Below are positions 14,210 to 43,369 of a DNA stretch of 64,000 bases, piece by piece. A program made the translations under genes and the position numbers. The stretch spans positions 1,910,836-1,974,835 of the forward strand of contig NZ_CP028858.1 in NCBI RefSeq assembly GCF_003058365.1. Direction: 5' to 3'. The DNA comes from Halococcoides cellulosivorans. Its GTDB lineage: Archaea > Halobacteriota > Halobacteria > Halobacteriales > Haloarculaceae. Every line of letters begins with the position of its first letter. Within the stretch, counting starts at the first letter, position 1. The notes under the pieces were generated by a model. That model did not search any database, had not been told where the DNA came from, and saw only the letters and a program-made list of their open reading frames with translations.

Positions 14210-14328
14210 GTGAGGAGCGAAGCGACGAACGAGCAGGCACGGATTCGAACCCTGGAAGTCGCGTGCGCACAGCGAACGCAGTGAGCGAGCACACCCGTCT
14301 TCCTCCGGTTCGAATCTGGTCCCGCGCA
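14189..14328 (+). repeat. Duplicated tRNA-Leu 3' tail with inverted T-arm copy between
   Basis: The last 21 nt of tRNA-Leu (14189-14209) recur exactly at 14308-14328, 119 bp downstream, without any tRNA body. Between them are purine-rich GAGCGAAGCGA tracts and a T-arm-like segment in inverted orientation around 14228-14246 (GGATTCGAACCCTGG). The same tail / inverted tail / tail layout occurs at tRNA-Met and tRNA-Arg. The remainder up to the DUF4870 promoter at 14506 shows no gene. Confidence 0.8.
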
Positions 14329-36909: not shown

Positions 36910-37400
36910 TTGAGATGGTGACGTGAGCCAATCTCCTCTAAATTAGCCCTCAAAGAGTGATGGAGTTCGCATACGGCGGCCGCGAGGCGGCTCTGGCGAC
37001 TCGAACTCGCGGCGTGTAGCGCCGCGCAAGCGACCCGTTTCACTCCTGGCGAAGCCTGCGAGACGTGACTGAAAGGAGCGTCTCGAATACGCGAACGGCA
37101 ACGCCGTGAACCGAAGGCTGAGCCAGCAGGTCTTTTTAATCCAGATTTTTCGAGGAGTGGGTTGCGGGCCGTCCGGCCCGCAACCGATTCCGTGGCGTGG
37201 GAGACGGGAAGCCGTCTCCAATCGAGGCGGTGGAACCGCCTCGCAGCCGCCACGCAGTTCGCGCGGAGCGCGAACCCGACGACGAAAAAGGTGGTCGGAT
37301 GGGCCCTGGCGGATTCGAACCACGGTCACTCCCGCTCGCTTCGCTCGCGGTCGTTCCCAGGTTCGATCCGCGGGCCATCTCCCTCGCTGCGCTCGGTCGA
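36910..37400. other. Structured intergenic stretch between the NTase cassette and tRNA-Met
   Basis: There is no protein gene in this 490-bp stretch. It holds, in order: a short tRNA-T-arm-like segment in minus orientation around 36996-37008 (GACTCGAACTCGC); a CGAGACG/CGTCTCG hairpin around 37050-37085; T-runs near 37131-37137 and 37146-37150; a cluster of four hairpins at 37160-37275; and a copy of the tRNA-Met tail at 37300-37322. Confidence 0.6.
37160..37275. ncRNA. Four-hairpin cluster, candidate structured RNA
   Basis: There are four perfect hairpins: 37160-37170/37175-37185 (11 bp), 37200-37207/37212-37219 (8 bp), 37223-37231/37235-37243 (9 bp, GGA loop) and 37257-37264/37268-37275 (8 bp, GGA loop). 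A 7-bp outer stem, CGTGGCG 37191-37197 with CGCCACG 37248-37254, encloses the second and third. T-runs flank it on both strands (37132-37136 plus, 37290-37286 minus). Strand and function are unknown. Confidence 0.35.
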
Positions 37401-37423
37401 TGGGCCCTGGCGGATTCGAACCA
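37300..37423 (-). repeat. Duplicated tRNA-Met 3' tail with inverted copy between
   Basis: The 3' 23 nt of tRNA-Met (plus coordinates 37401-37423) recur exactly at 37300-37322, 101 bp downstream in the tRNA's direction. Between them, 37361-37377 carries CCCAGGTTCGATCCGCG followed by GGCCAT, an inverted, slightly diverged copy of the same tail. The spacers are GCGAGCGAAGCG-type tracts. Confidence 0.8.
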
Positions 37424-37503
37424 CCGACCACTCGGTGTCCCAGTCCGCCGCATCGCGACGAACCTATGAGCCGAGCGCTCTCACCAGACTGAGCTAAGGG
37501 CCC
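37401..37503 (-). tRNA. Elongator tRNA-Met (CAU) with 28-nt intron
   Basis: Acceptor GGGCCCT (37503-37497) pairs with AGGGCCC (37408-37402), discriminator A. Anticodon CAT is at 37468-37466. The anticodon stem CTCGG pairs with CCGAG (37435-37431) only if 37464-37437 is removed, placing a 28-nt intron at the canonical 37/38 position. Haloarchaeal elongator tRNA-Met genes are known to carry introns there. CCA is not encoded. Confidence 0.92.
37437..37464 (-). other. Intron of tRNA-Met
   Basis: This 28-nt insertion lies directly after position 37 of the anticodon loop. It should form a bulge-helix-bulge for the archaeal splicing endonuclease. It is shorter than the ~75-nt intron described for Haloferax. 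Confidence 0.75.
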
Positions 37504-43010: not shown

Positions 43011-43083
43011 GTCCTGATAGGGTAGTGGACTATCCTCTTGGCTTGCGGAGCCAGGGACCGGAGTTCAAATCTCCGTCAGGACG
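43011..43083 (+). tRNA. tRNA-Arg (GCG)
   Basis: Acceptor GTCCTGA pairs with TCAGGAC and the discriminator is G. The anticodon arm TTGGC-TTGCGGA-GCCAG gives anticodon GCG, and the T arm is CGGAG-TTCAAAT-CTCCG. There is no encoded CCA. Its tail is repeated downstream. Confidence 0.95.
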
Positions 43084-43369
43084 TTTCTGCCGGCCCAAAC
43101 TGCCGAGCGATAGCGAGGCGTGCAGCGTCGGCAGAAACGTCCGCGGAGATTTGAGCAGACGAGTCACAGCCCGGGAAGCGACCGCAGGGAGCGACCCGGA
43201 ATGTCTCGGCGAGTTCAAATCTCCGTCAGGACGTTCACTCGGTTCCTGCGGAACCTCGTTCACGACCTGACGTGCCCGCGCTCACTGGGCTCGCGGTTGC
43301 ACCGCTCGCCGCTCCGAGGCCCCCACTTCGTTCGGGCCTCGCTACCCTTCGCGCGGACTCCGTCAGGAC
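43061..43369 (+). repeat. Repeated tRNA-Arg tail: direct, inverted, direct, plus a short third copy
   Basis: The 25 nt starting at 43061 (T arm, acceptor and following TT) recur exactly at 43211-43235, 150 bp downstream. Between them is an inverted copy: ACGTTTCTGCCG (43081-43092) pairs with CGGCAGAAACGT (43129-43140), and CGGAGATTTGAG (43144-43155) continues it. A third partial copy CTCCGTCAGGAC is at 43358-43369. The remaining sequence to 43424 shows no gene. Confidence 0.8.

Follow-up and report, generated by a model that had tools for sequence, protein, structure and literature searches.

Duplicated ends of tRNA genes are usually read as scars left by viruses or plasmids. Behind the tRNA gene at tyrT of Escherichia coli, a single bacterial locus, lie repeats of about 178 bp that each contain the tRNA 3' end; we know of no hairpin family shared by these repeats. 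Integron attC arrays consist of tandem units beside a fixed site, and each unit finishes with a covarying, imperfect hairpin in which unpaired bases are conserved. In Haloquadratum walsbyi, the abundant small mobile repeats SMR-A are about 110 bp long, lack a transposase, contain inverted repeats, and are inserted inside the palindromes of IS605-type elements and PATEs; according to their description, their terminal repeats are fixed and the target is not duplicated (PMC3119063).

The units described here were found in a stretch of 64,000 nt (the window), which is part of a 2.72 Mb haloarchaeal genome. With confidence slightly above even, we regard them as insertion cassettes at haloarchaeal tRNA 3' ends: small, free of protein genes, able to form hairpins, and belonging to a family that extends across the class.

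Results

The tRNA-Arg(GCG) locus

ARAGORN identified genes for tRNA-Leu, tRNA-Asn, and tRNA-Arg in the window, and Rfam added an intron-bearing tRNA at 37401-37503, which was read as tRNA-Met. A first-pass annotation had proposed a common repeat layout at three of the four tRNA genes. The layout was indeed observed behind tRNA-Leu, tRNA-Met, and tRNA-Arg, and was absent behind tRNA-Asn (Table 1).

Table 1 Features of the repeat units in the window
Feature	Position in window	Strand	Evidence
tRNA-Arg(GCG), intact; discriminator N73 at 43083	43011..43083	+	ARAGORN, Rfam
Direct copy 1: T-loop region and acceptor 3' strand of tRNA-Arg, with 2 nt of trailer	43061..43085	+	Repeat search, 100%
Trailer hairpin; stem 43084-43092 with 43129-43137	43084..43137	+	Inverted repeat; RNA fold z -3.25
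Inverted copy: acceptor tail (CGTCC) and T-arm (GGAGATTTGA), junction shortened to GC	43138..43154	+	Sequence, inverted repeat; predicted fold pairs it with 43211-43233
Type A head core AGTCACAG...GGAATGTCT; tip variable	43162..43206	+	Covariance model R2; covariation across the family
Direct copy 2 of tRNA-Arg 3' end; terminates exactly at N73 equivalent	43211..43233	+	Repeat search, 100%
Second unit, type D: inverted acceptor copy CCTGACG (43266-43272), hairpins, partial tail copy 3 (43358-43369)	43234..43369	+	
Unit behind tRNA-Leu(TAG): inverted T-arm 14241-14251, type A head, tail copy 14307-14328	14210..14328	+	
Type B unit behind tRNA-Met; tail copy inside 37298-37323	37298..37400	-	

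At tRNA-Arg, the 25-nt direct copies noted at 43061 and 43211 are exact (43061-43085 versus 43211-43235) and comprise the last 23 nt of the tRNA and 2 nt of trailer. The partial copy noted at 43358 extends over 12 nt and terminates the type D unit. The inverted copy, previously described as spanning about 27 nt, is real but interrupted: 43129-43142 matches 43079-43092 perfectly over 14 nt, and is followed by GC at 43143-43144, a 2-base junction replacing four tRNA bases, and then by GGAGATTTGA at 43145-43154. The tRNA flank within this copy had been taken as a sign that the copy arose after the flank was fixed. Since most of this flank belongs to the 3' arm of a distinct trailer hairpin, it is weak evidence on the order of events.

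A strong fold was predicted for the unit at 43084-43233 (240 nt, z -6.98), with a z of -6.73 for the head hairpin and two competing pairings for the inverted copy. In the type D unit, which is also present at orthologous tRNA-Arg genes in other genomes, CCTGACG was predicted to pair with CGTCAGG (z -3.09). Two covariance models were used, R1 for type B heads and R2 for types A and C. R2 matched the window at 43147-43222 (G000:C1:1953982-1954057, E 2.5e-14), the locus being among the sequences from which the model was built. The unit behind tRNA-Leu(TAG) also matched R2 (G000:C1:1925076-1925152, E 1.7e-19), and that behind tRNA-Met matched R1 (G000:C1:1948146-1948204, E 3.1e-13).

The genome-wide scan suggested in the first-pass annotation showed that the layout is widespread. 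The scan drew on 56 tRNA genes (55 found by Rfam and the tRNA-Leu of the window), of which 13 tightly clustered genes were set aside. An exact copy of at least 20 nt of the gene's own 3' end was found within 400 nt downstream for 40% of the remaining 43, compared with 2% upstream (one case) and 0.2% behind a different tRNA. The tRNA-tail copies in this genome are thus not due to chance. The clustered genes, which are mostly low-scoring, lie outside the window on one strand (G000:C1:2635124-2637763) and resemble the tRNA arrays of some viruses and proviruses; two of them have related hairpin units.

Anatomy of the units and conservation of the head

The units are about 100-150 nt long and occur singly or in tandem. 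The order is the tRNA, a trailer hairpin, an inverted copy of the T-arm and acceptor, a conserved head hairpin, a direct copy of the tRNA 3' end (G52/53-N73), and the native trailer. A direct copy usually begins with G52 or G53 of the T-arm (GGTTCRAATCC), and its last base corresponds exactly to the discriminator; the inverted T-arm before the head matches that of its own tRNA, T-loop variants included. Among tRNA-flanked heads, 92% have a direct copy of at least 12 nt upstream. Three head types were distinguished: type A, AGTCRCAGCCCG...GGAMYGTCT; type B, CAGGGAACG...GTGACCGTGG; and type C, AGTCGCGCGCAG...GAGCACGTCT. The type D unit copies only the T-stem 3' strand and the acceptor. The head core AGTCRCAG...AMYGTCT is common to different tRNAs and to non-tRNA sites in many genera. 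No recognisable protein gene was found in the units as read. The orientation of the head relative to the tRNA is nearly fixed; inverted heads between normally oriented T-arm copies were seen at G000:C1:418733-418801 and 1691686-1691764.

Covariation was analyzed with 81 T-box-flanked heads. Two pairs just outside the core were Watson-Crick in 80 and 78 of the 81 heads, with three to four pair types, compared with a mean of about 33 after shuffling and 13-45 when the register was slid. Within the core, a purine-pyrimidine pair alternates between GC (53) and AT (23), and the head stem has few wobble pairs. Because the core sequence and the unpaired bases are conserved and the stems covary, these alignments argue that the head is a recognised structure, either as RNA or as folded DNA.

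Such compensatory covariation, together with the predicted fold and its two competing pairings, would also suit a functional RNA trailer, a reading that we consider rather unlikely but serious. The transcribed hairpin would then act in tRNA 3' processing, protection, or attenuation, and the inverted copy could form a bistable switch by pairing with the T-arm and acceptor of the tRNA itself or with the second tail copy. In line with selection on RNA pairing, G-U exceeded A-C by 94:15 in the T-arm helix, near the 46:6 of the tRNA acceptor control; however, this excess is confounded by position, and no comparable excess was seen over all palindromes behind tRNAs (64:47). Furthermore, both head orientations were seen at two loci, and heads are also present outside tRNAs, which speaks against a trailer function.

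The first-pass annotation had also raised recurrent template switching at tRNA ends. According to this explanation, the units are a local mutational product, in which repeated template switching and fold-back synthesis act at the tRNA 3' end and quasi-palindrome correction keeps the stems perfect. It fits the arms, which are always tRNA-specific, the rarity of wobble pairs in the head stem, and the fast change of tips and tandem copies, and part of the proposal may therefore stand as an account of the tRNA-specific arms and of stem repair. It does not account for a head core and unpaired internal-loop bases that stay constant from one tRNA to another, across dozens of genera, and at non-tRNA sites, nor for the near absence of R2 matches outside the order. 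We thus judge it very improbable as a whole; as the sole cause, template switching is ruled out by the shared head core.

Presence, absence, and exchange of units

For tRNA-Gly(TCC), 44 genomes of one genus were searched and 30 loci were fetched. The orthologues were followed by unit 1 and unit 2, by unit 2 alone, or by no unit. The unit boundaries were always exactly at N73, and the downstream flanks were 87-88% identical. The clean absence of units at the same tRNA in related species, and their absence from over half of the tRNAs of this genome, count against the functional trailer. On the other hand, similar head-bearing hairpins were found at orthologous tRNA-Arg genes of several families, which counts in favor of such a trailer. 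At these genes, the outer motif was kept and the inner module replaced. The lack of a conserved layout between species had been named as grounds for abandoning the original observation; in fact, the layout recurs at orthologous tRNAs across families.

Heads of types A and C were exchanged within the same trailer flanks, and tandem arrays in other genomes had the orders a-a-c, a-b-a, and a-b-a-b. At tRNA-Gln and tRNA-Ser of this genome, the tandem units are near-identical repeats. Among loci selected by the type A pattern, head identity was 0.65 with the same tRNA in other genomes and 0.50 between different tRNAs in this genome; accordingly, there is no sign of a recent burst or spread of heads among the different tRNAs of this genome.

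Trailers and transcription

Runs of four or more T were found at 1.85 per kb inside the units, at 7.1 per kb after the last tail copy, and at 8.2 per kb behind element-free tRNAs. The suggestion that the units are a transcription-termination device is therefore not supported. Where present, the trailer motif ACCACCTTTTT comes directly after N73 in cassette-free tRNAs, and in several cassette-bearing tRNAs it comes after the last tail copy. These positions suggest that the second tail and its trailer represent the original 3' end, and make co-transcription of the unit with the tRNA probable. Transcription as suggested by the predicted terminator runs downstream is what the functional trailer would need.

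A second multi-hairpin repeat was observed at 37140-37297 of the window (minus strand). It starts with ACCACCTTTTTCGTCGTCGGG, contains GAAAAATCTGGACCAAAAAGACC, and lies behind many tRNAs of the genome, where it may hold their terminator.

Distribution in Halobacteria

In this genome, all confident R1 and R2 matches were near and behind tRNA genes. Of the 292 genomes sampled from the class, 284 matched R2, as did 73 of 77 genera. In the phylum sample, 51 of the 52 R2-matching genomes belonged to the order, and the remaining match was marginal (E 2.1e-4). When named genomes were scanned with a pattern, 80 loci were recovered; apart from two bacterial contigs, all came from Halobacteria. About 40% of the pattern-scan matches lay within 250 nt behind a tRNA on the same strand; many others were in Halorubrum-type composite repeats or intergenic, with no duplicated tail. 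The units matched no Rfam family at gathering or relaxed thresholds, where only the tRNA exceeded the threshold and nothing meaningful appeared at E <= 5, and literature searches of open-access papers found no description of the family.

Heads outside tRNA genes and a larger element

Direct copies were looked for at non-tRNA heads and were not found, so that the duplication is specific to tRNA sites. The non-tRNA heads lie in palindromic composite repeats. At the Halorubrum loci L123, L134, L146, and L163, and at similar ones, the head core is inside long composite repeats (GTGGGACTSAAAGGGGC...GGGGCTTTGG), which may be IS605/PATE ends; next to L134 are an ORF whose sequence resembles the C-terminal end of TnpB and a sot0042 match. 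At L172 and L190, the heads occupy short gaps, apparently between genes, and their arms match the local sequence and not the T-arm.

The units might instead be footprints of integrative elements, namely the attL and attR sites that remain once a virus or plasmid, integrated by a tyrosine integrase with a 22-nt core, has been deleted. Direct repeats of the tRNA 3' end do flank the insert. Partial tRNA duplications of 22 and 43 nt flank haloarchaeal proviruses (PMC3119063), and archaeal tRNA fragments commonly stem from integration (PMC9897764). Moreover, in a related genome an element with an integrase is present at a cassette-bearing tRNA-Gly (G031, L299:904-4119), where the tRNA is followed by 3.04 kb of DNA that includes a gene for a Phage_integrase protein (PF00589, E 1.8e-14). 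However, this is the only integrase found, the cassettes being non-coding, and its element is flanked by a different repeat: 177 nt at 98% identity, comprising the tRNA 3' half from the anticodon on (45 nt) and the whole cassette. The element thus has a core other than the 22-nt copy seen in the cassettes. The units also form a uniform set of small hairpins sharing a conserved core, which sets them apart from random remnants, and this head core was not found in the viral contigs scanned with two patterns. We hence give this origin little credence. As the 177-nt repeat holds a whole cassette, integrative elements can carry cassettes, and an element of this type is a possible vehicle for their horizontal spread.

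Discussion

The insertion cassette is ranked above the functional RNA trailer. As we picture it, a cassette would enter at the tRNA 3' end and bring a direct copy of that end, so that the tRNA stays complete and the native 3' end and trailer are displaced downstream. Units would be gained by insertion, and their loss would be readily explained by recombination between the direct copies. The cassettes would act mainly as DNA, as palindrome-seeking small mobile repeats, and would be co-transcribed with the tRNA and cut off at its 3' end. Fold-back or template-switch synthesis could make the arms but could not supply the shared core. Several points weigh against insertion: the cassettes could be linked to neither a transposase nor an integrase, arms specific to each tRNA are unexpected of a simple mobile element, and the orientation is nearly fixed. 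In addition, there was no sign of recent spread among the different tRNAs of this genome, no insertion was seen at strain level, and none of the scanned viral contigs carried the core.

The duplicated tRNA ends here mark a repeat family in nearly all sampled Halobacteria, inside an apparent tRNA transcription unit. If confirmed, these cassettes would represent a further kind of mini-insertion element, one with target-copied arms, and would show that insertion can occur at tRNA genes without destroying them. Searches that use tRNA-end repeats to detect integrated elements could be misled by them, and they would provide a testable system for tRNA trailer evolution.

Compared with known systems, the cassettes share with provirus and integrative-element ends a second copy of the tRNA 3' end (22 nt in one case) and a complete tRNA (PMC3119063, PMC9897764). 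Known provirus ends, however, enclose kilobases with genes, whereas the cassettes are hairpins of about 100-150 nt with a conserved core and are often in tandem. As in the E. coli tyrT region, the repeats lie behind a tRNA gene and contain its 3' end. They also recall integron attC arrays in their tandem units, covarying hairpin, conserved unpaired bases, and fixed site. By analogy, the tRNA 3' end could serve as an attachment site at which a protein of the host or of a mobile element recognises the folded single-stranded head and adds or removes whole cassettes, each ending in a regenerated tRNA 3' end. We regard such a system as improbable; unlike integrons, the cassettes seem to lack an integron integrase and attC boxes, and a tRNA end would take the place of attI.

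SMR-A is the nearest known family. Like SMR-A, the cassettes are about 100-150 nt long, lack a transposase, and contain inverted repeats. In contrast to SMR-A as described, they have arms that vary with the tRNA, and they come with a second copy of its end (92% of tRNA-flanked heads). Since SMR-A was described without target duplication and the two were compared by description only, membership is not claimed. With their conserved hairpin core and their clean presence or absence between species, the units resemble very small insertion elements of a class not yet described, in which the tRNA remains intact.
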